Source: Planctomycetota bacterium
Lineage (GTDB): Bacteria; Planctomycetota; Planctomycetia; Planctomycetales; Planctomycetaceae
Length of the DNA: 44,432 nt
Assembly (NCBI GenBank): GCA_030836185.1
Contig: JAURQH010000048.1
Location: 1-44,432 of the forward strand
Reading direction: 5' to 3'
The position numbers and the translations under genes were made by a program. This document shows positions 2,328 through 16,702 of the stretch, piece by piece. The stretch's first letter is position 1. Each line of letters starts with the position of its first letter. The notes beneath the pieces are model-generated. The model saw nothing but the letters and a program-made list of their open reading frames with translations, searched no databases and was not told where the DNA came from.

Positions 2328-3575
2328 TCATTCGCCATCGAGTCGTGGGAGAAGGTGACCCATTTTAGCGCGTTTGGTTTCCATGTATTTCTCGCGTTCT
2401 TTTTCGGGCGGCGCGACAATGGGAACCTGTTCCACTAATTTGAGATCGAAGCCTGGGTAGATGAAGGCGTCGGTCTTCTTCGGATTATTCGTCAGCAAGC
2501 GAATGTTCGACAGGCCAAGATCTTTGAGGATCTGCATGCCAATCATGTAGTCACGCATATCAGACTTGAAGCCGAGCTTGTGATTCGCTTCGACGGTATC
2601 GTATCCCTCATCCTGTAACTGATACGCTTTAAGCTTGGCGGTCAGCCCAATTCCGCGTCCTTCTTGTGGTAAGTAGACAACGGCTCCTGTCCCTTCATTG
2701 TGAATCATGCTCATTGCCATGTGGAGTTGATCACCGCAATCGCAACGGAGAGAATCGATCAAGTCGCCCGTGAAACAGGAAGAATGCATTCGCACCAGAG
2801 GTGCTTCCACTTTTGAAAGATCTCCCCAGACAATGGCTATCGGTTCCTGATCTTCGTGTTTGACGCTATATGCAATGACTTTCGGCGACCCAAATTGTGC
2901 AGTGGGGATTTTGACTTCCACCTCACGCGACACCAACCGTTCGCTTACGCGACGATGGCGAATGATTTCTTCAATCGAGATGATTGGGATTTCATACTGT
3001 TCGGAAACTTGTTTGAGTTCTTCATAACCGGCCATACCGAGTCCCGTCTGACTGGTAATTTCGATCAGAACTCCTACCGGATTGAGTCCTGCCATCTCCA
3101 TCAAGTCAACGGTCGCTTCGGTGTGTCCGGCACGCCGAAGCACGCCGCCACTTTTTGCTTTGAGTGGTTTAATATGACCAGGACGCAAAAAATCTTCAGA
3201 AACCGCCTTCGGGTTAGCAAGTTCATTTAGCGTTAATGCCCGCGAGATCGGGCTGACTCCCGTTCCGGCATCCCGGTGGTCAATGGGAACCTGAAAGGGT
3301 GTTTGATGCGGAGCAGTATTATCATCGGAATCGACGATGGGATTAAATCGCAATCGTTGCGCAACCTCAGCCGTCATGGGAGCACACAATTCTCCACGCC
3401 CCACTTTGAGCATAAAATTGACCATTTCAGGGGTAATTGTCTCAGCCGCACACACGAAATCGCCTTCGTTTTCGCGTTCTTCAGCATCAACCACGATGAC
3501 CATATGCCCCTCACGAAGTGCTTTCACGGCATCATTAAGAGGTGACCACTGTTTCTGATCGTTAGAATCTGGCAT
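2328..3575 (-). CDS. ribBA: RibBA, bifunctional riboflavin biosynthesis enzyme
   Basis: Cytosolic fusion of 3,4-dihydroxy-2-butanone-4-phosphate synthase (N-terminal half) and GTP cyclohydrolase II (C-terminal half), the two entry reactions of riboflavin synthesis. The 415-residue length is normal. The first domain shows DAEERENEGDFVCAAE (metal and substrate acidic loop), the FQVPIDHRDAGTGVSPISRA loop and GHTEATVDL. The second has the zinc site SSCFTGDLIDSLRCDCGDQL, YLPQEGRGIGL and the NPKK segment near the end. ATG at 3575 is chosen over TTG at 3587; neither has a strong Shine-Dalgarno sequence, with only GAGAT near the ATG. A small secreted ORF ends 31 bp upstream on the same strand. No terminator is obvious downstream. 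Confidence 0.96.
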   Translation of the reverse strand: MPDSNDQKQWSPLNDAVKALREGHMVIVVDAEERENEGDFVCAAETITPEMVNFMLKVGRGELCAPMTAEVAQRLRFNPIVDSDDNTAPHQTPFQVPIDHRDAGTGVSPISRALTLNELANPKAVSEDFLRPGHIKPLKAKSGGVLRRAGHTEATVDLMEMAGLNPVGVLIEITSQTGLGMAGYEELKQVSEQYEIPIISIEEIIRHRRVSERLVSREVEVKIPTAQFGSPKVIAYSVKHEDQEPIAIVWGDLSKVEAPLVRMHSSCFTGDLIDSLRCDCGDQLHMAMSMIHNEGTGAVVYLPQEGRGIGLTAKLKAYQLQDEGYDTVEANHKLGFKSDMRDYMIGMQILKDLGLSNIRLLTNNPKKTDAFIYPGFDLKLVEQVPIVAPPEKEREKYMETKRAKMGHLLPRLDGE

Positions 3576-3606
3576 AGGAGATCTCAATTGGGAGATAATT
3601 CAATGT

Positions 3607-3968: not shown

Positions 3969-6461
3969 ATGCGACACTTCTTATTACAGACCTCACTTGC
4001 CCTCACATGCCTGTTTTCCACAGGTCTCGTTGGTTCTGCAGTTGAACCCCAAGGGCTCGGCGACCCCGGAACTTTGCAATCGATTCAGGTCGAGCCGAAT
4101 CTAAGCGGGCAGGGGATTTCTATCCGAAGTAAAGATGCCCGTCAGCAACTTTTCGTGACGGGTGTGTTTAGTTCGGGACAGCTCCACGACTTCACTCGCA
4201 AGACAACTTATACGACCGAGCCAAATGGCATCGTGACTATCAGCTCTGAAGGCATGGTGACTCCACTCGCCGATGGCGATGTCAAAATCATTGCCAAGTC
4301 AGAAGGGAAACAAGCCGAGGCTTCCGTCAAGGTCACCGGGTTTGCTGAGCAAACTCCCATCAACTTCAAGAATCAAATCGTCCCCGTCTTCACGAAGCTG
4401 GGCTGTAACAGTGGTGGCTGTCATGGAAAATCGGGTGGGCAAAACGGATTCGCATTGTCGCTACTCGGTTTTTATCCCGAAGACGATTACGAATTTCTGG
4501 TGAAAGAAGCACGGGGACGTCGACTGTTTCCAGCCTCTCCCGGCGCATCTCTTTTGTTAACCAAACCGGTCGGTCAATCACCTCATGGTGGTGGAAAGAG
4601 AACAGAAGTTGGCAGCTACGAATACCGCATGATTTATCGCTGGATCGAACAGGGAATGCCTTATGGCTCAGAAGACGATGCCTATGTCACAGGGATTCGC
4701 TGTCTGCCTGAAGGTCGAATCATGGACCGTGGCTCGGACCAACAAATCACCGTACTGGCAGAATACAGTGACGGTACGACTGAAGACGTCACACGCATGG
4801 CACTCTACGAGGCCAATGACAGTGAGATGGCGGAAGTGACTGAAGAAGGTGTCGTCAAAACTCTCGACCTGGCGGGTGAAGTTGCCATCATGGCCCGCTA
4901 TCAGGGACAAGTCGCGACATTCCGAGCCACAATTCCATTGGGCGCACCAACCGATAGTATTCCTGCACTAAACAACGACATCGACCAGAAAGTCTTTGCG
5001 AAATTGAATGTGCTGGGGATCCCGGCTTCCGACGTTTGCGATGACGCGACGTTTCTGCGTCGTGTCAGTATCGATATCACTGGTGGCGTTCCGAGCGAAT
5101 CCGAAGTGAAAGCGTTTCTCGAAAACACTGATCCTGACAAACGGGCAAAAGCAATCGACCAGTTGCTCGATTCTCCCGCGTATGCGGACTACTTTGCGAA
5201 CAAATGGAACCTGGTATTACGCAACAAGAACCCAAGAGCAGGGGAAGAAGAAGCAACCTTTGCCTTTTATCGCTGGATCTGGGACAGCGTCTACGAAAAT
5301 AAACCGTACGACGAGTTCGTAAGCGAGTTGTTGACGGCGAGTGGGAATGTTCGCTTCAATCCTCCCGTTGTGTGGTATCGACAGGTCGCAACACCGGAAG
5401 AACGTGTGGAAGATACCGCTCAGCTCTTCTTGGGGCTGAGGATTCAATGCGCTCGCTGCCACCATCATCCCTTCGAGAAGTGGAGCCAGAACGATTACTA
5501 CAGTTTCAAGGCGTTCTTCAACCGAATCGGTACGAAGAACCAAATTTCAAGGCAACAATATTTCGTCCAAGCCGAATTGTTCCACAATGTCGGAATCGCC
5601 ACTGACAAGAATCCACGTTCAGGGGCGACTCTCAAGCCGGCTGGTTTAGGTTCCGAACCGCTTGAAATCCCCGACGAACGCGACCCTCGCGCCTATCTGG
5701 CCGACTGGATGTCGTCTCCCGAGAACCCATTCTTAGCCAAAGCGGTCGTCAATCGTTACTGGAAACACTTCTTCTCACGAGGCATTGTCGAACCGGAAGA
5801 TGATATGCGAGAAACCAATCCTCCCTCCAACCCGGAGTTATTGAACGCATTAGCAGACAACTTCATCAAGAGTGGCTTCGACCTGAAACAACTGGTACGC
5901 TCCATCTGCAACTCAAAAACGTATCAGCTTAGTTCCTTGCCGAACGAGTATAACCTGAAAGACAAACAGAACTTCTCTCGCTATTATCCCAAACGATTAA
6001 CGGCAGAAGTTCTCTATGATGCGTTCCACGATGTGACGGCAACGACACAAGGCTACAGTGGATTGCCCACTGGCACACGAGCCATTCAACTTCCCGACCC
6101 CGGCAAAGGGCCGTACTTCCTCAAAGTCTTCGGACAACCTGCCGGCGATACGGCTTGCGAATGCGAGCGATCTCAAGAAGCAAATCTGGCACAGGCCCTA
6201 CATTTACTGAATAGTAGCGAAGTGCAGAACAAGATTTCCTCGGGGAGTGGTCGAGCCGCCATGCTCGCCAAGGATAAAGAGCGAACCCACGAAGAGAAAC
6301 TTCATGAGTTATACCGTTGGGTCTTCTCGCGGAATCCTCGTTCCGAAGAACTCTCTGTCGCGATCGCCCATATCCAGAAGCATGAAGAGAACCCACAAGT
6401 CGCCTATGAAGACATTTTATGGGCTTTGATCAACAGTAAGGAATTTCTGTTTAATCACTGA
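3969..6461 (+). CDS. DUF1549/DUF1553 planctomycete cytochrome-like protein with BIG2 domains
   Basis: An 830-residue exported protein with a signal peptide (about residues 1-26). In order: a bacterial Ig-like (BIG2-type) domain around 38-130, a planctomycete cytochrome-like module with CNSGGCHGK near 145, a second Ig-like domain around 240-335, a PSCyt2/DUF1549 domain from about 340 (DDATFLRRVSIDITGGVPSE) with CARCHHHPFEKW near 495, and a PSD1/DUF1553 domain to the end (NPFLAKAVVNRYWKHFFSRG, NSKTYQLS). Cys-His motifs could bind haem or another metal, but CNSGGCH is longer than a classical CxxCH; function in the family is unknown. GAGGAG lies just before ATG 3969. A terminator follows, so it is probably transcribed separately from the two surface-protein genes downstream. 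Confidence 0.92.
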   Translation: MRHFLLQTSLALTCLFSTGLVGSAVEPQGLGDPGTLQSIQVEPNLSGQGISIRSKDARQQLFVTGVFSSGQLHDFTRKTTYTTEPNGIVTISSEGMVTPLADGDVKIIAKSEGKQAEASVKVTGFAEQTPINFKNQIVPVFTKLGCNSGGCHGKSGGQNGFALSLLGFYPEDDYEFLVKEARGRRLFPASPGASLLLTKPVGQSPHGGGKRTEVGSYEYRMIYRWIEQGMPYGSEDDAYVTGIRCLPEGRIMDRGSDQQITVLAEYSDGTTEDVTRMALYEANDSEMAEVTEEGVVKTLDLAGEVAIMARYQGQVATFRATIPLGAPTDSIPALNNDIDQKVFAKLNVLGIPASDVCDDATFLRRVSIDITGGVPSESEVKAFLENTDPDKRAKAIDQLLDSPAYADYFANKWNLVLRNKNPRAGEEEATFAFYRWIWDSVYENKPYDEFVSELLTASGNVRFNPPVVWYRQVATPEERVEDTAQLFLGLRIQCARCHHHPFEKWSQNDYYSFKAFFNRIGTKNQISRQQYFVQAELFHNVGIATDKNPRSGATLKPAGLGSEPLEIPDERDPRAYLADWMSSPENPFLAKAVVNRYWKHFFSRGIVEPEDDMRETNPPSNPELLNALADNFIKSGFDLKQLVRSICNSKTYQLSSLPNEYNLKDKQNFSRYYPKRLTAEVLYDAFHDVTATTQGYSGLPTGTRAIQLPDPGKGPYFLKVFGQPAGDTACECERSQEANLAQALHLLNSSEVQNKISSGSGRAAMLAKDKERTHEEKLHELYRWVFSRNPRSEELSVAIAHIQKHEENPQVAYEDILWALINSKEFLFNH

Positions 6462-6493
6462 TAAATCAGGGATGTTCCGCAAAACGGCCTTTA

Positions 6494-6526
6494 AAGTCGA
6501 TCCGGTTATCCGGGTCGACTTTTTTT
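6494..6526 (+). terminator. rho-independent terminator after the DUF1549/DUF1553 gene
   Basis: AAGTCGATCCGG (6494-6505) pairs with CCGGGTCGACTT (6510-6521) through 12 pairs, one of them T-G, around a TTAT loop, followed by a T run to 6526. It is 32 bp after the stop codon of the preceding gene. Confidence 0.9.
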
Positions 6527-6718
6527 GTGTAGACAGCCAGACTCGACCAGTTTTTTTTCGACCTTGGCGACCTCTCTCGTTATCATGAACTAATCACGAT
6601 GAAGCGATACTATTCATCGTTCCCACCAATATCCACACAATCATGTGAATCCTGCGCGTAAATCCGTTCGAACCACATTCAACGGATCATCACAGACCAA
6701 CCGAAAGAAGAGGTCGGA

Positions 6719-9700
6719 ATGTTATTTCCCGCTCAAATGCGCATTGCCAGTTTAATTCTACTGGTCTTGTTACTTGGCTCCAACTTAGAAGCTCAAGTCG
6801 CCCAAACGAGTATCAGTGCAGTCTCTCCTCCGGGAGCCCAGCGTGGACAAACCATCGATGTCACGATTAGCAGTGGCAAAGATCTCGACATGGTCGATAA
6901 ATTAGTCTTCAGTCACGCCGGTATCACGGCCAAACAGAAGATGAGAGACCAAGCGGGCAAACAGGTTCCCGTCACCAACACATTTGAACTGACAGTTGCG
7001 GCTGATGTTCCAATTGGATTCCATGATGTCCGCGCTCACGGTTATTTCGGCATCAGCAACCCGCGAACCTTCGTCATCAGCGACTCACCCGAAGTTTTGG
7101 AAAACGATGCCAACAACACTCTCGACACGGCACAACCGGTCGAACTCGGCCACATTGTAAACGGAGCCAGCAATCGCGCTGCTGACGTTGATTTCTATAA
7201 GCTCACTCTCCCCGCCAATTATCATCTTGTGACTGAAGCTGAAGCACAAACTATCGATTCGCGAATGCGGGCTCAAATCGAACTCCTTAACGCCAGCGGT
7301 CGTCGTCTCGAACGCTCGCGTGGCGGTTATCGAGGCGACCCGGTTCTCGATTACACAGTGAAAGATGCAGGCGAATATTATTTGAAAGTCACCGAATTCA
7401 GTTATCGTGGCAGCAACGATTATTTCTACCGCTTACATGTGAACTCACGACCGCATATCGACTTCATCATACCCGCTTCGGGGCAACCAGGTTCGAACTC
7501 CTCGTACACAATTCACGGGCGTAATCTTCCGGGAGGCGCACCAAGCGGAGTCATCATTGATGGTGTAGAATTGCAGAAAGTCACAACCAACATCGCCATT
7601 CCCGCCAATCCTGACCAATTGAAGCTTAACCATAATCTTCTGCCAGCAGAATCCTCGGCTGATGTCTTCGGTTGGCGTTTGCAAACTCCGCAAGGAACCT
7701 CGAACTCACTTTCCATCCATTATGCCGATGCTCCGGTGATTCTTGAACAGGAACCCAACAACGACGCTACGCATGCTCAACAAATTACGATACCGACCGA
7801 CATCACAGGACAGTTCCAGGAAAAACTCGACACAGACTGGTATCAGTTCACCGCAAAAGCAGGCGATGTCTATGCAATTGAGGCTTACGGTCAACGTCTT
7901 GGGAAACAGACTGACCCACGTTTTATTGTGGAGCAAGTCACCGTCAACGACAAAGGAGAAGAATCCGTCAAACGACTCACTGATCAAGACGATGTAAAAA
8001 CAACGATTGGTGGCGACGACTTCAATACTCGACACCGTGATCCCGTCTGGATGCTCACGGTTCCGGCAGATGGAGCCTACCGGGTGATGATCAGTGATCG
8101 CTATCGTGAGAACCGTGGAGACGCACAACTTCTCTACCGGCTGGTCATTCGTAAACAAACTCCCGACTTCCGCTTGGTTGCCTTCGCATCAACTCCTAAT
8201 GCGGCCGCTAATCAACCGGGTACGACCGGCGTCTTGTCTCTCCGCAAAGGAGACAACTCGTACATTGATGTCCTTGCTCATCGAATCGATGGATTTAATG
8301 GCGTCATTGATGTGAAAGTTGAAAATCTGCCCGCCGGTGTCACATGCCCGGGTGCTGTCATTGGCCCAGGGACGAACTCGGCTCGTCTGATTTTGACAGC
8401 AGCTCCCGATGCCGAAATCAATGCGACAGCCATCCAAGTCAAAGGGGAAGCAAAAATCGAGGCTCCACAAACCCAAAAAGAATTAAAGGCAGCCGTCGCA
8501 GCGATCAAACCGACAGAAGACAAAATCCCGGCTTTGAGCAAAGCCGTTGCGGATGTCATGCCTAAAATTCAAGCCGCGCAGAAGAAACTGGAAACCGACC
8601 GGCAAACGGCGGAAGCCCAGGTAAAAACGGCTCTCACCAGTCTTACGAATGCTCAAAAAGCACAACAGACAGCGCAAGCTGTTGTCACTGAACAACAAAA
8701 GAAAGTTCAGGCGGCAGAAACCGTTCTCAATACTCGCAATGCGGAATTGAAGACCACCCAAGACGCTCTCACCAAAGCCAAAGCCGATGCAGCCGCTGAC
8801 GCCGAAAATCAGGACAAAGCGAATGCTGTCAAAACAGTTGAGCAACAGGTGCAAGTCGCGACCAAAAATCAGCAGGATGCGACCAACGCCGTCAACGCCG
8901 AAAAGCAAAAACTGACTCAGGTCGATAATGATCTGAAGGCAAAAACAGCAGTCGCCACGAAAGCGGCAGCCGACAAGAAAACCGCCGATGACAATCTGAA
9001 AAACAAAGTCACCCAGGCCGAAGCTGAACTCAAAAAAATTCAGGATGTGTTGAAGGCTGCGCAAGACAAATTGACCGCTGGACAAAAAGTAATCGGCGAC
9101 ACGAAGCAGAAGGTCAACACCCTACAACAACAACTCCAACAAACCGCAAAACCAACAACTCACATCGCGCGGACAGCCTCTCTCATCTGGACCGGTAGCC
9201 AGAACACGGGCGAAAATACCGACTCGCGCCTAACACGCTCGTTGATGGTCAGCGTGATGGACGACCTTGCCGAGTTTCAGGCAGTTGTCACAGCCCCCTC
9301 AAATCGTTTTGAGGTCTCGCAAAGCTCCCAGGTCTTGATCCCGGTGAAGGTCGAACGGCGAGAAGGTTTTGACAACAACGTCACTCTTACATTCGCCGGC
9401 TTCGATGCGCGAACCAGTAAACTGCAAGTCGAAAACAAGCCTCTCAACAAAGGTGAGACCGAGGGAGTTCGCCGCGTTTTCATTCCCAAAGATTCTCCTC
9501 CCGGCGCTTATACATTGTATCTGAATTCACAAGCACAAGTTTCGTATGCGAGAAACCCAGTCGCCATCGCAGAGGCCAAAGCAACTGTTGATACTGCTGA
9601 GGCAGACCGCAAAGCAAAAGAAGAAGCCAACAAACAGGCCATCGCTGCTCAGCAGAAAGCCGACGCCGATCTGAAAGCCACCGAGCAAAAACTGAAGACG

Positions 9701-10576
9701 GCGACCGATGCATTGACCAATGCTCAAAAAGCACAACAAGCATCTCAAAAAGTGGTGACCGATCAACAGGCAGTCGTCAAGACAGCCGAAGCAACCCTCA
9801 AAACTCGCGATGCAGAACTCAAAACCGCACAAGACGCCCTAGCGAAAGCGAAAGCCGACCTAGAAGCCGACAAAGAGAACCCAGAGAAGGCCAAAGCCGT
9901 CGCAACTACCGAGCAACAGCTTCAAACTGCGACGAAAGCACAAGTCGATGCGACCAACGCGACGAACGCGGAGAAGCAAAAGTTGACTCAAGCTGAGGCA
10001 GATCTCAAAGTCAAAACTGAAGCAGTGACAAAAGCGGATGCCGAGAAGAAAACGACAGAAACCGCGGTCGCAACCTCTAAAGAGGTCAAAACAAAAGCAG
10101 ATGCCACCGCTAAAACTGCCGCCGACGCTTTAAAAACTGCCACAACCGCCAAAACAAATGCTGATAAAAATCTGCAAAACGTCACAAATGCCAACAAAGC
10201 AAAAAACGTGAACCTAACCGTCCCTTCGACTCCCGTTGTCCTGGTCGTGAGTGAAGCCCCTTATGAAGTCGCCATTGCTGCTCCCGATGGTGGCAATCTC
10301 AAGAAAGGCGCATCAACCGATGTAAAAGTCACTGTGAAGCGTATCCCCCGATTCGATGGCCCCGTGACAGTCACCTTACCACTTCCCCCTGGAGTGACCG
10401 GCCTCAAAGCCGACCCTTTAACAATTCCCCCCGATCAAACTGAAGGCATCCTGAAGATTCACGCCGATGGGAATGCCCCCGACGGAAAACCGACGAACTT
10501 GATCATCCGCGGGCAAGCCGATTTTCTCGGCAAAGCGTCCGTTGATGCACCATTGAGCCTCAACCTCACAAAATAA
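6719..10576 (+). CDS. large surface protein with PPC domains and two coiled-coil inserts
   Basis: A 1285-residue exported protein, function unknown. It has a signal peptide (about 1-25), an Ig-like N-terminal domain, a PPC-type beta-sandwich at about 128-240 (ENDANNTLDTAQP), an IPT-like segment, and a second PPC-type domain at about 342-480 (LEQEPNNDATHAQQ). An Ig-like domain follows, then an Ala/Lys/Gln/Glu-rich coiled coil at about 585-810, a further beta domain (about 840-945), a second coiled coil (about 950-1160) and a final Ig-like domain. The two coils contain a collinear duplicated block, 357 residues apart and about two thirds identical. AGAGG lies 6 bases before ATG 6719. The cytochrome-WD40 gene follows after 69 bp without a terminator, so the two are probably co-transcribed and may work together at the cell surface. 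Confidence 0.88.
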   Translation: MLFPAQMRIASLILLVLLLGSNLEAQVAQTSISAVSPPGAQRGQTIDVTISSGKDLDMVDKLVFSHAGITAKQKMRDQAGKQVPVTNTFELTVAADVPIGFHDVRAHGYFGISNPRTFVISDSPEVLENDANNTLDTAQPVELGHIVNGASNRAADVDFYKLTLPANYHLVTEAEAQTIDSRMRAQIELLNASGRRLERSRGGYRGDPVLDYTVKDAGEYYLKVTEFSYRGSNDYFYRLHVNSRPHIDFIIPASGQPGSNSSYTIHGRNLPGGAPSGVIIDGVELQKVTTNIAIPANPDQLKLNHNLLPAESSADVFGWRLQTPQGTSNSLSIHYADAPVILEQEPNNDATHAQQITIPTDITGQFQEKLDTDWYQFTAKAGDVYAIEAYGQRLGKQTDPRFIVEQVTVNDKGEESVKRLTDQDDVKTTIGGDDFNTRHRDPVWMLTVPADGAYRVMISDRYRENRGDAQLLYRLVIRKQTPDFRLVAFASTPNAAANQPGTTGVLSLRKGDNSYIDVLAHRIDGFNGVIDVKVENLPAGVTCPGAVIGPGTNSARLILTAAPDAEINATAIQVKGEAKIEAPQTQKELKAAVAAIKPTEDKIPALSKAVADVMPKIQAAQKKLETDRQTAEAQVKTALTSLTNAQKAQQTAQAVVTEQQKKVQAAETVLNTRNAELKTTQDALTKAKADAAADAENQDKANAVKTVEQQVQVATKNQQDATNAVNAEKQKLTQVDNDLKAKTAVATKAAADKKTADDNLKNKVTQAEAELKKIQDVLKAAQDKLTAGQKVIGDTKQKVNTLQQQLQQTAKPTTHIARTASLIWTGSQNTGENTDSRLTRSLMVSVMDDLAEFQAVVTAPSNRFEVSQSSQVLIPVKVERREGFDNNVTLTFAGFDARTSKLQVENKPLNKGETEGVRRVFIPKDSPPGAYTLYLNSQAQVSYARNPVAIAEAKATVDTAEADRKAKEEANKQAIAAQQKADADLKATEQKLKTATDALTNAQKAQQASQKVVTDQQAVVKTAEATLKTRDAELKTAQDALAKAKADLEADKENPEKAKAVATTEQQLQTATKAQVDATNATNAEKQKLTQAEADLKVKTEAVTKADAEKKTTETAVATSKEVKTKADATAKTAADALKTATTAKTNADKNLQNVTNANKAKNVNLTVPSTPVVLVVSEAPYEVAIAAPDGGNLKKGASTDVKVTVKRIPRFDGPVTVTLPLPPGVTGLKADPLTIPPDQTEGILKIHADGNAPDGKPTNLIIRGQADFLGKASVDAPLSLNLTK
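8645..8985 (+). repeat. duplicated coiled-coil block, copy 1
   Basis: This block encodes a helix beginning LTNAQKAQQ and ending near TKAAADKK. It aligns without gaps to 9716-10056 in the same gene. I count about 77 identical residues out of roughly 113. The DNA also matches closely at places, for example AATGCTCAAAAAGCACAACA in both copies. It is an internal duplication of part of the gene, not a mobile element. Confidence 0.85.
9716..10056 (+). repeat. duplicated coiled-coil block, copy 2
   Basis: Second copy of the block at 8645-8985, offset by exactly 1071 bp (357 codons). It encodes LTNAQKAQQ to about TKADAEKK. Both copies end in NAEKQKLTQ followed by an acidic/lysine stretch. The two differ mostly by conservative changes at exposed helix positions, which suggests retained coiled-coil function after duplication. 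Confidence 0.85.
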
Positions 10577-10645
10577 ACATCCCCAGCTTTCTCTTTATCA
10601 ATTTCCAACCGAGCTCTTTTGATCCACCAACACAGGTCTCAAATC

Positions 10646-13525
10646 ATGACACGTGTCTTCACTCTATTCTCCGCGATCTTACTTTCGAATCTGCTATCAG
10701 CTTCAGCGGAAGACAAACTACCAGTGATCAATCACGAGGATCCGAAACTGGGTCGACCCGTCGATTTTGAGCGGGATGTCTATCCTATTCTCGATGCCAA
10801 GTGCGTCGCCTGCCACAACGTGGCCGTTGATGAGAGCAAACTGGTACTGGAAGATGTCGAGGGAATTTTGAAGGGTGGAAAACGTGGCCCGTCTGTAATT
10901 GCAAAAAAACCGGACGAAAGTTGGTTATTCAAAATGGCTGCCCGAATAGATGGTCCTGCCATGCCCCCACAACCAAACTCCGTCGAGGCTCCACCGTTAT
11001 CTCCTAAAGAGTTAGGCATCATTCGACAGTGGATTATCGAGGGAGCGGCTGCAGGCAGCGGCGCAGCAAAGATGGTCATCAATTGGGGACCAGTCCCTCC
11101 AGAGATTCAATCAAGTTACAGCTTGGCCCTCTCTCCCTATACACGTTTGGCTGCCGTTGCACGAGCTAACCAAATTCATGTCTACGACATCGCCAGTCAA
11201 AAACAGATCAACCAACTGACAGACTCTGCACTCGCAGGGTTGAAGTTCAACGAACAGCCTCTTTATCCCAAAGGAGCCGCCCATCAAGACTTCGTCCACG
11301 CTCTGGCATTTCATCCGTCTGGAAAAATGTTGGCCAGTAGCGGATACCGCGTGATCAAACTATGGGAGCAACCACAAAACGTACGTCTGTGGGAAAGCCC
11401 CGCACTCAGCGGCGAAATCACCGCTTCCGCGATCTCCGCGGATCGTAAATTCATCGCAAGCGGGCTCTCAGATGGAAGGGTATTGCTAATTGATGCGGCC
11501 ACTGGAAAGACGCTACGCGAGTTCCCCGGATTGACGACTGCCGTAACAGGCGTTGCGTTCAAACCGGATGTATCCCAGATCATTGCAGGAAGCCACGACA
11601 AAAAGACCATCGCCTGGAATGTTGCTGACGCTGCTGTTGTGGGAGAAATTGTCACACCCGTTGAAATCGAATCCCTCATCATCAATAAGGACGGCAATCG
11701 TCTCGTGACGGGGCATCGTGACAATATGATTCGCGTTTGGGAGATGCCGGGAGTCGCCAAACCCAAAGAGGGTGAGACCGACATCAAACCACTCGCCGAA
11801 CTGAAAGGGCACAGCCAACCCATCACCACGCTGGTCGCGCATCCAACCGATGCCAATCAATACCTCTCAGGATCTGCAGACAAAACCGCCCGCCTTTGGC
11901 GTCTCGACAACGGCCAGAACCTCCGCACGTTTACCCACAATGCAGCAGTCCACGATTCTGATATTTCGTCCGATGGAACTCAAGTTGTGACAGCCGGGCA
12001 GGATGGTTTCGCACGTGTTTGGCGTGCCGATAATGGGCAGAAAATCGCAGAGGTCTCAGGAGATTTGACGGCAATCCACGATCAGGTACTCAAAGCGGAA
12101 ACAGCATCTGTCGCCAAACAGAAAGTAACCCTTGCCGATGCTGCCGTCAAAGCGGATGAAAAATCTGTCACCGAGCGAACTGAAGCCCTGAAAAAAGCAA
12201 ACGAAGCTGTCACCGAGGTCGATAAAAAACTGAAAGAAGCACAAGACAAAGTCCCACCGGCGCAAGAGGTCGTCAACAAAGCCAAAACCGAATTCGAGGC
12301 CAAAAAAGATGACAAAGCCTTAGAAAAGAAACTGAAAGACGCGGAAACAGCTCTTACGAAAGTCCAAGACGAATTGAAAAAAGCGGAAGAAGCGAAGAAA
12401 GTCGCCGACAATGCCGTCAAACTTTCAGGTCAGTCTCTCAAAAAATCACAAGCCTCGTTAGAAGAACGCAAGAAAACTCTCGAAACGGCGACTCAACAAC
12501 AAACAGCCGCCGATAACGAATCCAAAGCCGCAACTGAAACACTGAAAACAAGCGTCAAGCCAATTCAGTCTGTCGCGTTTTCCCCAGACGGAAAATCATT
12601 CGCAACGGGTGTAGAGAGCGGTCACTGGACAACCTGGAATAGCGCAGATGGGCAGGGCATAGACACTTTTCAACGCTCTCAAGCCCCAGTCACATCGATC
12701 GTATTTGTTTCAGAGACAACGGTTCTCACAGCAGGGAAGGACAAACAGTTTGCCACCTGGAATACACAGCCTGATTGGCAATTGATCGCCCGACTCGGAC
12801 CACCGGCCGACAAACCACTCGATATCGCAGATTCTGTCCTTGAAGACCGCGTCGTTTCACTCGATTTCAGTCCTGATGGAAAATGGCTCGCGTCGGGTGG
12901 TGGAGAACCATCACGGAGCGGAGAGCTCATCCTCTGGGACATCGAGAAGCGTACTGTGAAACAAAAGTTCGAGGAGGCACACAGTGATACCGTTTTAGGC
13001 GTCGAGTTTTCTCACGACGGACAATTTCTCGTTTCGGGTTCTGCCGACAAATTCGCCAAAATTTTCTCTGCGACGACGGGGCAATTAGTCCGTGCGTACG
13101 AAGGACACACTCATCATGTGATGGATGTCACCATCAAGAAGGATAACTCTGAACTTGCGACTGCAGGTGCCGACAACGCGATTAAAATTTGGAATGCAGA
13201 AACAGGCGAACAAAAACGAACCATCAGCAACTACTCCAAGCAAGTGACGGCCATCCAGTACGAAGGTGATAAGGATAATATATTGAGCTGTGGTGGCGAT
13301 AAGACTGTCCGCTATCATCGCACACCCAATGGACAGAACTTTCGCAATTTTGGGGGAGCGACCGACTATCAATATGCCTCGGCCGTGTCCCGTGACGGCA
13401 AGCTAGTTCTTGCCGCAGGAAATGATGGAATTCTGCGTCTCTGGAATGGCACGAACGGACAGGCAATCGCAACTCTGGAGCCGCCAAAAGCTGAAGTAAC
13501 TCAGCCGGTTTCCACTCAAAAATAA
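10646..13525 (+). CDS. planctomycete cytochrome-WD40 protein with coiled-coil insert
   Basis: A 959-residue exported protein. After a signal peptide (TRVFTLFSAILLSNLLSASA) it has a PSCyt1-type cytochrome module (DFERDVYPILDAKCVACHN; CxxCH for covalent haem), ending in IRQWIIEGA. WD40 repeats follow (for example HPSGKMLASSGYRVIKLW, SGSADKTARLWRLDNG, AGQDGFARVWRADNG). An Ala/Lys/Glu coiled coil of about 160 residues interrupts the propeller at about 472-635, and more WD40 repeats run to the end (FSPDGKWLASGG, SGSADKFAKIF, AGADNAIKIWNAETG). ATG 10646 is chosen over TTG 10619 because it starts directly at the signal peptide; the ribosome binding site is weak. The insert resembles those in the preceding gene in composition and may mediate assembly with it. 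Function is unknown. Confidence 0.88.
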   Translation: MTRVFTLFSAILLSNLLSASAEDKLPVINHEDPKLGRPVDFERDVYPILDAKCVACHNVAVDESKLVLEDVEGILKGGKRGPSVIAKKPDESWLFKMAARIDGPAMPPQPNSVEAPPLSPKELGIIRQWIIEGAAAGSGAAKMVINWGPVPPEIQSSYSLALSPYTRLAAVARANQIHVYDIASQKQINQLTDSALAGLKFNEQPLYPKGAAHQDFVHALAFHPSGKMLASSGYRVIKLWEQPQNVRLWESPALSGEITASAISADRKFIASGLSDGRVLLIDAATGKTLREFPGLTTAVTGVAFKPDVSQIIAGSHDKKTIAWNVADAAVVGEIVTPVEIESLIINKDGNRLVTGHRDNMIRVWEMPGVAKPKEGETDIKPLAELKGHSQPITTLVAHPTDANQYLSGSADKTARLWRLDNGQNLRTFTHNAAVHDSDISSDGTQVVTAGQDGFARVWRADNGQKIAEVSGDLTAIHDQVLKAETASVAKQKVTLADAAVKADEKSVTERTEALKKANEAVTEVDKKLKEAQDKVPPAQEVVNKAKTEFEAKKDDKALEKKLKDAETALTKVQDELKKAEEAKKVADNAVKLSGQSLKKSQASLEERKKTLETATQQQTAADNESKAATETLKTSVKPIQSVAFSPDGKSFATGVESGHWTTWNSADGQGIDTFQRSQAPVTSIVFVSETTVLTAGKDKQFATWNTQPDWQLIARLGPPADKPLDIADSVLEDRVVSLDFSPDGKWLASGGGEPSRSGELILWDIEKRTVKQKFEEAHSDTVLGVEFSHDGQFLVSGSADKFAKIFSATTGQLVRAYEGHTHHVMDVTIKKDNSELATAGADNAIKIWNAETGEQKRTISNYSKQVTAIQYEGDKDNILSCGGDKTVRYHRTPNGQNFRNFGGATDYQYASAVSRDGKLVLAAGNDGILRLWNGTNGQAIATLEPPKAEVTQPVSTQK

Positions 13526-13637
13526 TCGCGACACTGGACTAATTGGTCGAACTTGATTGGCTTGCAGTCTCCTACGCGAATCGCGACACCTAGAGTCCGT
13601 AAACACTTATTTGTCGACGAAAACCACGAGAATCCAC

Positions 13638-14918
13638 ATGTCTCAAGAACTTTATCAACGTCTGCTGGCCGAACTCGAATCACTCGTCCTGATCGATCCT
13701 CACACCCATATCAACCCCCATTCTGCGGCCTCCACTACGCTGGCAGACATCATGGGGTATCACTACTACACAGAGCTGGCTCATTCTGCCGGTTTGCCCA
13801 AAGAGCAAATCGAACAACCGGGAATTGAGCCCAAAGAAAAAGTCGGTCGACTGGTCGAGAAACTGCATACACTGGAGAACACCGCACAGGTGAGCTGGTT
13901 GTTAGAAATTTGCCGGGAGTTTTTCGACTTTGATGAAGAAATGCTAACACCCGACAACTGGGAAACAGTCTATGACACGGCACTCCATAAAATGGCTCAA
14001 CCTGACTGGGAAGAGCAGGTTCTCAAGCAGAGCAAATTAGAGAAAGTTTTTCTGACCAATGACTTTGACGATCCATTGGAAGGATTTGACACCTCGCTGT
14101 ACATCCCTTGTCTGCGTACTGATGATCTCGTCTTCCATCTGACAAAACCTGAAACGCAACAACGATTGCAAAAGGCCACCGGCCTCGGTTGCGGATCCGC
14201 TGACGAACTGAAATCTGCCATCGGTAAACTGTTCGAACACTTCACTGCAAACAATGTAAAGGCGTGTGCGATTTCATTACCTCCCGACTTCGCACCCGCC
14301 CCCATTGACGGGGCTCGTGCAAACACGGTCGTCACGAAAGCCGGGCAAGGAAGTGAGCTGTCAGCCGATGAAGCCCGCGATTTGTCCTGCTTTGTCTTCT
14401 GGACACTTGCAGAATACTGTTCCGAATACAAACTTCCCTTCGACTTGATGATTGGCGTCAATCGAAGAGTCTACGAAGAGGGTGTCTTCCAGGGACAGGA
14501 TCTGTACGACAAACGGACATCGTTGATCCTGTACTCAAAATTATTCAATGCGTTTCCGCAGGTCACTTTTCCCGTTTCGGTGCTGGCTCAAACCAGTAAT
14601 CAGGAACTCGTCAGTTACAGTTGGATTTTCCCCAACGTCGTCACCAACGGTCATTGGTGGTACTCCAATATTCCAGCTTATATCGAACTCGATTGCCGTA
14701 GTCGCCTCCAGGCGGTCCCACAAACCAAGCAAATTGGTTACTACAGCGATATGTATAAACTCGAATTCGCCTTGCCCAAATTTGCCATGTACCGACGAAT
14801 CCTCGCCAAAGTCCTCTCTGAAGACTTTGTACAAGGACGCGGATGGTCGGAAGAAAAAGCCGTCTCATTAGGGCATTTAACCTTGAGAGGCAACGTCGAA
14901 ACGATTTTCAAAATGTGA
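13638..14918 (+). CDS. uronate-isomerase-like (UxaC-related) amidohydrolase-fold protein
   Basis: A 426-residue protein related to glucuronate isomerase in the amidohydrolase superfamily. The metal-binding H22 and H24 are in LIDPHTHI, the LTNDFDDP segment matches the strand-borne TTDDP motif of UxaC, and NGHWWYSNIP matches the family's WWF-type motif. True UxaC is about 470 residues, so this is a shorter, diverged relative; the substrate cannot be read from sequence. ATG 13638 (MSQELYQ) is preferred to TTG 13557 because similarity begins there. The gap of 112 bp from the WD40 gene contains no visible terminator, but function gives no reason to link them. Confidence 0.75.
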   Translation: MSQELYQRLLAELESLVLIDPHTHINPHSAASTTLADIMGYHYYTELAHSAGLPKEQIEQPGIEPKEKVGRLVEKLHTLENTAQVSWLLEICREFFDFDEEMLTPDNWETVYDTALHKMAQPDWEEQVLKQSKLEKVFLTNDFDDPLEGFDTSLYIPCLRTDDLVFHLTKPETQQRLQKATGLGCGSADELKSAIGKLFEHFTANNVKACAISLPPDFAPAPIDGARANTVVTKAGQGSELSADEARDLSCFVFWTLAEYCSEYKLPFDLMIGVNRRVYEEGVFQGQDLYDKRTSLILYSKLFNAFPQVTFPVSVLAQTSNQELVSYSWIFPNVVTNGHWWYSNIPAYIELDCRSRLQAVPQTKQIGYYSDMYKLEFALPKFAMYRRILAKVLSEDFVQGRGWSEEKAVSLGHLTLRGNVETIFKM

Positions 14919-14940
14919 TCTCGATATACTCTGACGGTCC

Positions 14941-14966
14941 GTTGTTGTATTAAGTTGTTGTATTAA
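14941..14966. repeat. perfect 13-bp tandem duplication
   Basis: GTTGTTGTATTAA occurs twice head to tail at 14941-14953 and 14954-14966, in the intergenic region 86 bp upstream of the FHA-GAF-PP2C gene. It may alter promoter spacing or simply be a recent slippage event. Confidence 0.9.
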
Positions 14967-15052
14967 TACGTGCAGATCGGTAATTGCGTCACCTTTGCTC
15001 GCAGCTTAGAATATACCGATTCTTTCTTTCCTTTTTTGCGGAACGACCTCTC

Positions 15053-16702
15053 ATGTCGAAACTGGTTCTCTTACAAGGCGGACAAGCCACTCCATTTGCA
15101 CTCACGGAAGAGCAAAATGTGATTGGCAGACTTCCAGAATGCGCGATTCAACTACAATCGAACATGGTCTCTCGGAAACACGCTGAAGTTGCCAAGTCCG
15201 ACGGCAAATTTCTGGTCAGAGATCTCGGTAGTGGTAACGGCACATTCCTCAATGGAAAGAAAGTTGAAACCCCAACAGCGTTGAAGCACAACGATCGACT
15301 GAAAGTCGGCCCGATGCTGTTTCGTTTTGAAACCGACGAGCCACAACCTCCGGCTGCCGAAATTCAAGAATCTGATTTTCTCGCCGATGATTCTGAAGGC
15401 TCGACGATCATGGCGACAGCCACCAACCTCGATGGCTTCGGTATGCTGGATGTTGCTCCTGAGGCAAAGCTGAAGGGGGTTCTTGAAATCAGCCGCAATC
15501 TAGCGGGGTCTGTGGAAATTGACAAGATTCTTCCCAAGATTCTTGATACTCTTTTCCGTATTTTTCCCGGATCAGATCGTGGATCAATTGTCTTGAAAGA
15601 CTCCGAGTCGGGAACACTCCGCCCCGCGGCCCAAAAGCATCGAAATCCCACAGAAGACGAAACCGTTAAACTCAGTCGTACTGTTTTGAACAAAGTGATT
15701 CAAGAGAAGGCAGGGATTCTCTCTGCTGATGCAAGTAGTGACCAACAATTTAGCGCGGCGGAATCGATTTCTGCACTTTCGATTCGATCCATGATGTGCG
15801 TGCCAATCATTGATCTCGAAGGAGAGGCAATTGGCGCAATCAATATTGACACGCAAAACCCCATTTCTCAGTTCAAACAAGAAGATCTCGAGATCCTCTT
15901 AGCCATCGCCGGACAAGCAGGCATCACTATTGCCAACGCCAGACTCTACGAGTCATTTCTGCAAAAACAAAAGCAGGACAGCGAAATGCAAATCGCACAA
16001 AACGTCCAGGTCGCATTGCTACCCGAGAGCCTTCCCGAAATCGAAGGCTACTCGTTCTTCGCCTCTTACGAATCTGCTCAAGCGGTGGGGGGAGACTACT
16101 ACGACTGCTTTAAGCTTCCCGACAACCGTGTTGTGGTTTCATTTGGAGATGTGGCGGGGAAGGGGGTTCCCGCATCGTTAGTAATGTCTCGGATCGCAAG
16201 TGTCGTGCAATGCACTCTGAAACACGAAACCGATGTGCAACAAGCCATGCTCACAATTAATGACTTGATGAGTTCACATAGTATCGATGGGCGATTTGTC
16301 ACGTATGTACTCTGTGTCATCGATCTGAATTCACACGAAATCACCTTCGCGAACGGAGGCCACATGTGTCCGATCGTCCGTAAGGCCGATGGCTCGCTCA
16401 TCGAAATTGGCGAGGAAGAAATTGGCATCCCGGTCGGAATTATGGAAGGCTATCCGTATGAAATAGTGAAATACACTCTCAATCCGGGAGAGACCGTTGT
16501 GATTTATACCGACGGCGTCAGTGAAGCCATGAATTCCAAAGAAGAGCTTTATGGAATGGAACGGCTCAATGAAATCGTCTCACACAACAGTAGCGACCCC
16601 GAAGAACTGGGAATTGTCATTCGCGAAGATGTTCGTAAACATGCGGGCGGATTCCCTCAAAACGACGACATTACCCTAATGACGTTTGGAAGAACGGAAT
16701 GA
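15053..16702 (+). CDS. FHA-GAF-PP2C (RsbU-type) serine phosphatase
   Basis: A 549-residue cytosolic signalling protein. An FHA domain (about 1-90; VIGRLPECAI, NMVSRKHAEV, DLGSGNGTFLNGKK) should bind phosphothreonine peptides. A GAF sensor domain (about 145-305; CVPIIDLEGEAIGAINIDTQ) follows. A SpoIIE/PP2C-type phosphatase domain (about 310-549) has AVGGDYYDCFKL, SFGDVAGKGVPASLVMSR, ANGGHMCP, IYTDGVSEAMN and NDDITLM, the metal-coordinating aspartates being present. Such proteins typically dephosphorylate anti-sigma antagonist proteins in partner-switching pathways. ATG 15053 (MSKLVLLQGG) is chosen over TTG 14984 as FHA similarity begins immediately. No partner anti-sigma antagonist or kinase gene is adjacent; the ECF pair at 19003-20194 is of a different type. 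Confidence 0.92.
   Translation: MSKLVLLQGGQATPFALTEEQNVIGRLPECAIQLQSNMVSRKHAEVAKSDGKFLVRDLGSGNGTFLNGKKVETPTALKHNDRLKVGPMLFRFETDEPQPPAAEIQESDFLADDSEGSTIMATATNLDGFGMLDVAPEAKLKGVLEISRNLAGSVEIDKILPKILDTLFRIFPGSDRGSIVLKDSESGTLRPAAQKHRNPTEDETVKLSRTVLNKVIQEKAGILSADASSDQQFSAAESISALSIRSMMCVPIIDLEGEAIGAINIDTQNPISQFKQEDLEILLAIAGQAGITIANARLYESFLQKQKQDSEMQIAQNVQVALLPESLPEIEGYSFFASYESAQAVGGDYYDCFKLPDNRVVVSFGDVAGKGVPASLVMSRIASVVQCTLKHETDVQQAMLTINDLMSSHSIDGRFVTYVLCVIDLNSHEITFANGGHMCPIVRKADGSLIEIGEEEIGIPVGIMEGYPYEIVKYTLNPGETVVIYTDGVSEAMNSKEELYGMERLNEIVSHNSSDPEELGIVIREDVRKHAGGFPQNDDITLMTFGRTE

Follow-up and report, generated by a model that had tools for sequence, protein, structure and literature searches.

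Three successive open reading frames (ORFs) on the + strand of a 44,432-nt stretch of Planctomycetota DNA (contig JAURQH010000048.1; the whole stretch is referred to here as the window) encode P1 (positions 3969–6461, 830 amino acids (aa)), P2 (6719–10576, 1285 aa) and P3 (10619–13525, 968 aa), the row of three genes already recognized in the first-pass annotation of this DNA. We propose, at a probability of about one in two, that the locus encodes an exported haem-protein assembly in which P1 would be the redox subunit and P2 and P3 would be scaffolds carrying long coiled-coil arms; the co-occurrence of the three genes, their fusions in relatives and their haem motifs lead us to this proposal. 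Furthermore, the tips of the arms appear to have been copied between the neighbouring genes P2 and P3 and between the two coils of P2. The results suggest that the triad is an undescribed protein machine, and a literature search, with many journals outside its coverage, turned up neither the three-gene unit nor the copying of tips.

P1 is a PSCyt2–PSD1 protein, as annotated in the first pass: the Pfam family PSCyt2/DUF1549 (PF07583; E 9.5e-50, 169.9 bits against a cut-off of 29.8) is followed by PSD1/DUF1553 (PF07587; E 1.1e-47, 162.9 bits against 28.5), both above cut-off, with Big_2 also matched in the N-terminal part and Ig-like proteins as the matches of a sequence search against solved structures. 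PSCyt1 gave no match in P1 up to E 0.01, which leaves P1 outside the single-chain PSCyt1–PSCyt2–PSD1 type; the three families stand together in one chain in the distant relative L144. The CxxCH motif of P1, CARCH (aa 494–498, positions 5448–5462, + strand, within QCARCHHHP), reads CARCH in 42 and CAKCH in one of 43 aligned P1 sequences, and an unusual CX4CH motif, CNSGGCH (aa 146–152, 4404–4424, + strand), is a possible second haem c site, both Cys residues and the His being kept in at least 97% of the lettered rows of the same alignment (43 rows, two of them empty here). P3 scores as a PSCyt1 cytochrome over aa 1–160 (PF07635; E 6.7e-10, 39.9 bits against a cut-off of 22) and has the haem c motif CVACH there (aa 62–66, 10802–10816, + strand; C62, C65 and H66 at no less than 97% of 52 P3 sequences) with MPP downstream, and it matches many WD40 models (among the matches listed, which cover 25 of 49 families), in line with its earlier description as a cytochrome–WD40 protein with CxxCH. 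The haem motifs of P1 and P3 are thus invariant or nearly so, and these motifs make the two proteins putative c-type cytochromes. The earlier label of P2 as a PPC/immunoglobulin (Ig)-like protein holds marginally, as PPC (PF04151) reaches 26.6 bits against a cut-off of 25.9 and no single stretch matches at E 0.01 on its own. By eye, all three proteins have the signal-peptide-like N-termini claimed for them and are probably exported; the ATG at 10646 is, also by eye, a likelier start of P3 than that at 10619.

By Pfam score, P1 and P3 are members of the PSCyt1, PSCyt2 and PSD1 families, for which a redox role has been suggested (PMC2754498), which are without known function in the accessible parts of two reports (PMC5615132, PMC2754498) and which are numerous in planctomycetes, two of the domains being present in 41 copies each in R. 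baltica (PMC2754498). In the accessible parts of the same two reports, a three-gene unit with a PPC/Ig-like partner and coiled-coil arms was not found. Verrucomicrobial PSCyt groups with WD40, Big_2 or a carbohydrate-binding module (CBM) combine PSCyt/PSD with WD40 or Big_2 much as do P1, P3 and the P3+P1 fusions described below (PMC5615132); compared with these groups, the window has a split form with arms, and CBM is absent among the Pfam matches listed for P1–P3. The locus also differs in make-up from a porin–multihaem extracellular electron conduit: P1–P3 and three neighbouring genes include no porin among the Pfam matches listed and carry, by eye, at most two haem motifs per protein.

The first-pass annotation had made a shared system depend on co-conservation of the three genes, and they are co-conserved. 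Each protein was searched in 120 sampled genomes of the window's family, presence being a listed match of at least 60% identity for P1, E 1e-80 or better for P2 and E 1e-40 or better for P3. P1 passed in 99 genomes (among the matches listed), all three genes were present in 93, none in 13 and a mixture in 14, several of the mixed genomes being incomplete assemblies; G104 was counted as P1-negative, though its stretch L079 holds a P1 fragment. Every pair of genes co-occurred (Fisher p ~1e-9 or less, uncorrected for phylogeny and assembly gaps). In 54 loci chosen by their P2 match, window included, P2 and P3 were adjacent on the same strand in 52 (median gap 48 bp) and P1 and P2 in 44 (median gap 215.5 bp), and some of the non-adjacent loci stop at contig ends. 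P1 lies apart from P2–P3 in G001, G028 and G070, and the three genes are scattered in G048, yet all three are kept in each of these genomes.

Fusions were seen among 40 loci (L131–L170) chosen for their P1 score and, in the second twenty, also in part for long open frames; L138, L139, L142, L146–L149 and L160 of these are from the window's own family. P2 and P1 form one ORF in L150, L152 and L153, and a P3-type protein and P1 form one ORF in L144 and L157–L165 (L162 is cut at its start), L160 coming from G033, a family member without the triad. In other families of the phylum, a coil-bearing P2 and P3 accompany P1 in L132, L133, L135 and L136, with another gene order and wider gaps in L133; L134 is cut, and in L140, a reduced form, P3 lies on the opposite strand. 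In a separate observation, the C-terminal part of the P3+P1 fusions L157, L160 and L164 is long, with charged helical stretches and an unassigned domain ahead of a P1-type ending, and Pfam gave no match there up to E 0.1 in the three.

The long coils that had been noted in P2 and P3 are present, with a heptad period in both proteins, although P2 has two coils and not one. AlphaFold2 (AF2) models place each coil as an antiparallel hairpin on the + strand: P2 coil 1 (aa 584–693 and 698–809, 8468–9145) at the last turn of an Ig-like domain, P2 coil 2 (aa 947–1050 and 1055–1158, 9557–10192) in the next Ig-like domain, and the P3 coil (aa 483–561 and 566–645, 12065–12553) at the junction of propeller A (aa 152–478, 11072–12052) and propeller B (aa 655–960, 12581–13498). 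Each P2 coil emerges from a turn close to the end of its Ig-like domain, the two domains being successive, and the coil-less paralogue L081 of the same genome has only a short turn at these positions. Since WD40 matches, AF2 strand order and repeats counted by eye put the P3 coil between two sets of seven WD40 repeats, the former idea that it interrupts a WD40 propeller does not stand. The modelled helices have 110 and 112 residues in coil 1, 104 and 104 in coil 2 and 79 and 80 in the P3 coil, each pair joined by a 4-residue turn, and helix rise is 0.15 nm per residue, giving predicted arms about 12–17 nm long. A hydrophobic period of 3.5 residues exceeded composition shuffles in coil 1 (0/500), coil 2 (p 0.012) and the P3 coil (p 0.016), where periods of 3.4 and 3.6 score about like 3.5. 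Heptad periodicity, equal helices and tight turns are as expected of antiparallel coiled-coil hairpins, a prediction made from three sequences (the AF2 alignments held the window, L038 and L039). The predicted local distance difference test (pLDDT) score averaged 68.8 over P2, and the helix blocks mostly scored 78–91 in P2 and 74–81 in P3. The hairpin shape and the tandem propellers are thus predicted features, and coils in relatives were called by a crude composition rule devised for this analysis.

The P2 model had no fold match at E 0.001 or better. Among the Foldseek matches of the P3 model are the tandem WD proteins Utp21 and Pwp2, which share with P3 two consecutive WD40 propellers but are eukaryotic ribosome-biogenesis proteins and are not known to have a cytochrome or a coil hairpin. 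Smc arms, EnvC, colicins E3 and E9 and SH3BP5, none of them matched at E 0.001 or better, resemble the arms as long helical pairs suggestive of a rigid arm, whereas the arms here are rooted at Ig-like turns or between propellers, and homology is not claimed. The main text of a systematic study of prokaryotic WD40 proteins mentions neither 'cytochrome' nor 'coil' (PMC5587647). Beside the window's form of P3, enlarged forms of 1537–1640 aa occur in L060, L061 and L077, with many additional WD40-type repeats before the coil in L060 and L061.

Among close homologues, whose lack of coils had been named as a sign against a shared system, the P3 coil was found in 52 of 52 P3 proteins (174–357 aa) and P2 coil 2 in 53 of 53 P2 proteins (103–315 aa), but coil 1, ranging from 15 to 332 aa, does not exceed 23 aa in 13 of the 53, where it is counted as missing, and is optional among relatives. 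L063, whose P2 is cut by the contig end, was left out of the coil lengths, and L063 and L080, which have no P3 in their stretches, were left out of the P3 counts. The ratio of non-synonymous to synonymous substitution rates (dN/dS) between the window and L038, a single genome pair, was 0.12 for coil 1, 0.08 for coil 2 and 0.07 for the P3 coil, beside 0.07–0.08 for the P2 and P3 beta-domains, 0 for the cytochrome part of P3 and 0.035 for P1; in the comparison with L039, nine of the ten parts were saturated at silent sites. These data bear on the idea that the arms have no specific function and are largely neutral growths, tolerated at permissive beta-turns and spread through recombination. Such growths could explain the wide length range and dispensability of coil 1, coil lengths that do not co-vary significantly and an additional 89-aa coil-like insert in propeller A of P3 in L048 (after the position of window residue 314), but the constancy of the P3 coil and of P2 coil 2, dN/dS of 0.07–0.12 in the coils and the maintained heptad periodicity make this explanation quite unlikely.

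The lengths of P2 coil 1 and the P3 coil were correlated in the raw data (rank correlation 0.46, p 0.0007). With independent contrasts over 52 loci, this correlation fell to r 0.19 (p 0.17), and neither coil 2 and the P3 coil (r −0.15, p 0.28) nor the two P2 coils (r 0.27, p 0.054) co-varied significantly, so that coil length gives no support to side-by-side pairing of the coils, a possibility raised in the first-pass annotation. There is a hint that coil lengths are quantised in heptads: the commonest lengths suggest steps of 42 (175/217/259 and 189/231/273/315), but only 12 of the 43 different lengths lie a multiple of 7 away from the mode (p 0.015). A heptad test on alignment-gap lengths was dropped because the aligner itself prefers heptad gaps. 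DNA tandem repeats were rejected as the source of the coils, as none was found in 6700–13600.

Similarity between coils of one locus is plain in the window itself, where the tip segment of coil 1 (aa 643–757, 8645–8989, + strand) is identical to a segment of coil 2 (aa 1000–1114, 9716–10060, + strand) at 77 of 115 residues (67%) without gaps. The same-genus relative L042/L039 is without this tip part, and the corresponding 136-aa insert of the window shares 84 of 127 residues with coil 2 of L042/L039 and 82 of 126 with the window's own coil 2. Because coil 1 is short (122 aa) in L054, the next outgroup in the tree, gain of the tip from coil 2 is likelier than its loss in L042. In five other lineages, a lengthened P3 arm resembles the P2 arms. 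The P2–P3 match exceeded Z 7.5 in 9 of the 11 loci whose P3 coil measures at least 259 aa, compared with none of 41 others (Fisher p 1.5e-8; the Z 7.5 cut was picked after the scores had been seen, with pairs given down to Z 5.5, and shared descent is uncorrected), the exceptions being L074 and L094; the nine loci fall into five tree groups (L044; L070; L060–L062–L067; L047–L050–L051; L048). Gap-free P2–P3 DNA blocks were found by blastn in L070 (469 bp, 77%), L060 (535 bp, 71%), L062 (474 bp, 71%), L044 (520 bp, 68%) and L047 (460 bp, 66%), and L047 has a block within P2 (459 columns, 83%); blastn matches of 155–185 bp at 100% in L051, L067, L069 and L072 were excluded as overlapping ORF ends. 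Identical residues use the same codon more often than expected in L047 (76% observed, 51% expected), L070 (57%, 41%), L044 (51%, 37%) and L050 (66%, 51%), which points to copying at the DNA level.

Across genomes, coils of the same genome were more alike than coils of different genomes in all three pairings, the mean being reached in 0 of 5000 permutations (n 36, 36 and 51, with composition uncontrolled and with L041, a near-duplicate of the window, left out). All 100 heptad-block shuffles were beaten by 16/37, 17/37 and 20/52 within-genome pairs, at Z 15.8–22.7 in L044, L060, L062 and L070. With a P2 coil as the query, only coils of the same locus were matched at E 1e-5 or better, both in G000, the window's genome, where all 80 candidates were scored, and in G006, where 150 of 318 were, and the composition rule finds no coil in the matching ORFs of seven other P2-like loci of the window's genome (L081–L087). 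A longer coil was aligned with the shorter coil of a relative in five cases, and the largest insert lay near the middle of the shorter coil, i.e. at the tip, in three of them (window/L042, L060/L065 and L044/L043, at 41/93, 78/161 and 100/203). Each of these three inserts resembles another coil of its own locus (63–81%); that of L060 is identical to its own P2 coil 2 at 63 of 78 residues and that of L044 at 43 of 68, the added 140 residues of L044 being spread over several gaps. Concerted evolution in prokaryotes likewise makes stretches of one genome more alike than orthologues and, in the reported set, the products of 22 of the 26 genes belong to stable complexes (PMC6053082); that work concerns duplicated genes, whereas the segments here belong to two genes with different other domains.

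Several observations weigh against the proposed assembly and against tip copying within it. Random between-genome pairs also beat all 100 heptad-block shuffles (6/37, 9/37 and 12/52), so some of the similarity between coils predates copying or arose independently of it. Of 126 same-codon comparisons only five exceeded Z 3, and one of these came from L078, a locus not flagged in any other way; copying of DNA is clear for the most recent cases alone. Alignments of L070/L045 and L047/L096 are fragmentary, with the largest insert off centre (74/203 and 54/161), the L070 insert matches coil 2 of its relative in that comparison (67%) about as well as its own, and in the window's genome coil 2 did not match the P3 coil at E 1e-5. 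Nor are coils confined to this triad: a second P1–P2 paralogue group (L139–L142 and L146, the last from the window's genus) has a coil of 60–91 aa near the end of P2, G037 holds a second coil-bearing triad (L138) besides the first, and P2 of L131 (family f68) is without a coil by the composition rule. The non-significant co-variation of coil lengths counts in the same direction, as do the confounding of co-occurrence by phylogeny and incomplete assemblies and the AF2 models, whose overall shape and domain placement are unreliable with three sequences and which average pLDDT 62.1 for P3, with most of the cytochrome region below 50. Lastly, a hairpin resembling an intrinsic terminator (6493–6522, + strand, 13 pairs and a T-run) lies between P1 and P2, so the tandem layout described in the first pass, correct in that the genes are consecutive, need not equal one operon; the consensus scan gave 13 such sites, compared with 14.6 expected in shuffles, and the stem at 6493–6522 is the longest of the 13.

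Coil sharing might alternatively reflect convergence of low-complexity Ala/Lys/Gln/Glu sequence rather than copying. The biased composition of the coils, a permutation test that did not control for it, the frequent success of between-genome pairs against shuffles and the lack of same-codon excess in most pairs agree with convergence. It would, however, have to produce the gap-free P2–P3 blocks of 460–535 bp at 66–77% in L044, L047, L060, L062 and L070, similarity that outlasts heptad-block shuffling in four of these loci, same-codon excess in L047, L070, L044 and L050 and inserts that match another arm of the locus, and we regard it as highly improbable. Returning to copying, we tentatively consider a modular arm system, doubtful as it is at present, in which the three hairpins in two proteins of one complex would be a locus-confined pool of exchangeable tips; the arms would grow by end-grafting, in which the distal hairpin of one is added by copying to the tip of another, and selection would keep the tips alike through docking on each other or on a common partner, making the triad an undescribed armed haem complex of the planctomycete envelope.

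Neighbouring genes bear on what the assembly might do. A uronate-isomerase-like gene (PF02614) and an FHA-GAF-SpoIIE gene lie 3' of the triad (13557–16702, by Pfam), each family being near the triad in 19 of 54 loci, and a ribBA-type gene lies upstream on the opposite strand (2328–3587, by Pfam), its family being near the triad in 16 of 54. The complex could oxidise or bind periplasmic sugars in polysaccharide or uronate oxidation, binding being the task of P2 or of the WD40 propellers, considering the adjoining uronate-isomerase-like gene and the linkage, in freshwater Verrucomicrobia, of PSCyt genes with sulfatases and carbohydrate-binding modules (PMC5615132). However, carbohydrate-binding and glycoside hydrolase domains are absent among the Pfam matches listed for P1–P3, no sulfatase or glycoside hydrolase was recognized by eye in the six neighbour clusters listed, and the UxaC-like neighbour could be passive synteny, as could ribBA; a role in sugar oxidation thus seems unlikely. 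The arms may instead be lattice struts of a planctomycete envelope structure, such as crateriform pits or fibres, to which the haem sites would be secondary. Arms of 12–17 nm that tolerate length change fit envelope scales, pili-like fibres of 12 nm and pits linking outer and inner membrane having been reported (PMC5394234), but in 13 of the 120 genomes sampled from the family none of the three genes reaches its threshold, and the conserved haem motifs argue for redox chemistry, so that we consider a structural role very unlikely.

Considering these results, we propose the following scenario for the exported haem-protein assembly. P1, with its CxxCH and CX4CH motifs, would most likely be the redox-active subunit; P3, with PSCyt1 on two WD40 propellers, would most likely serve as electron relay and docking platform; and the PPC/Ig-like P2 would most likely be a scaffold or binding subunit. 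The P2 and P3 hairpins, rooted at turns or junctions of beta-domains, may act as rigid booms of ~12–17 nm that hold haem domains apart or span a wide periplasm, and arm length may change at the tips, where an arm would receive a copy of the tip of another arm from within the locus. The recurrence of the three genes as a unit, together with the fusions, indicates which partners to purify or delete. If true, the copying of tips between genes with otherwise different domains would be a natural experiment in how rigid arms change length with both strands kept in register.

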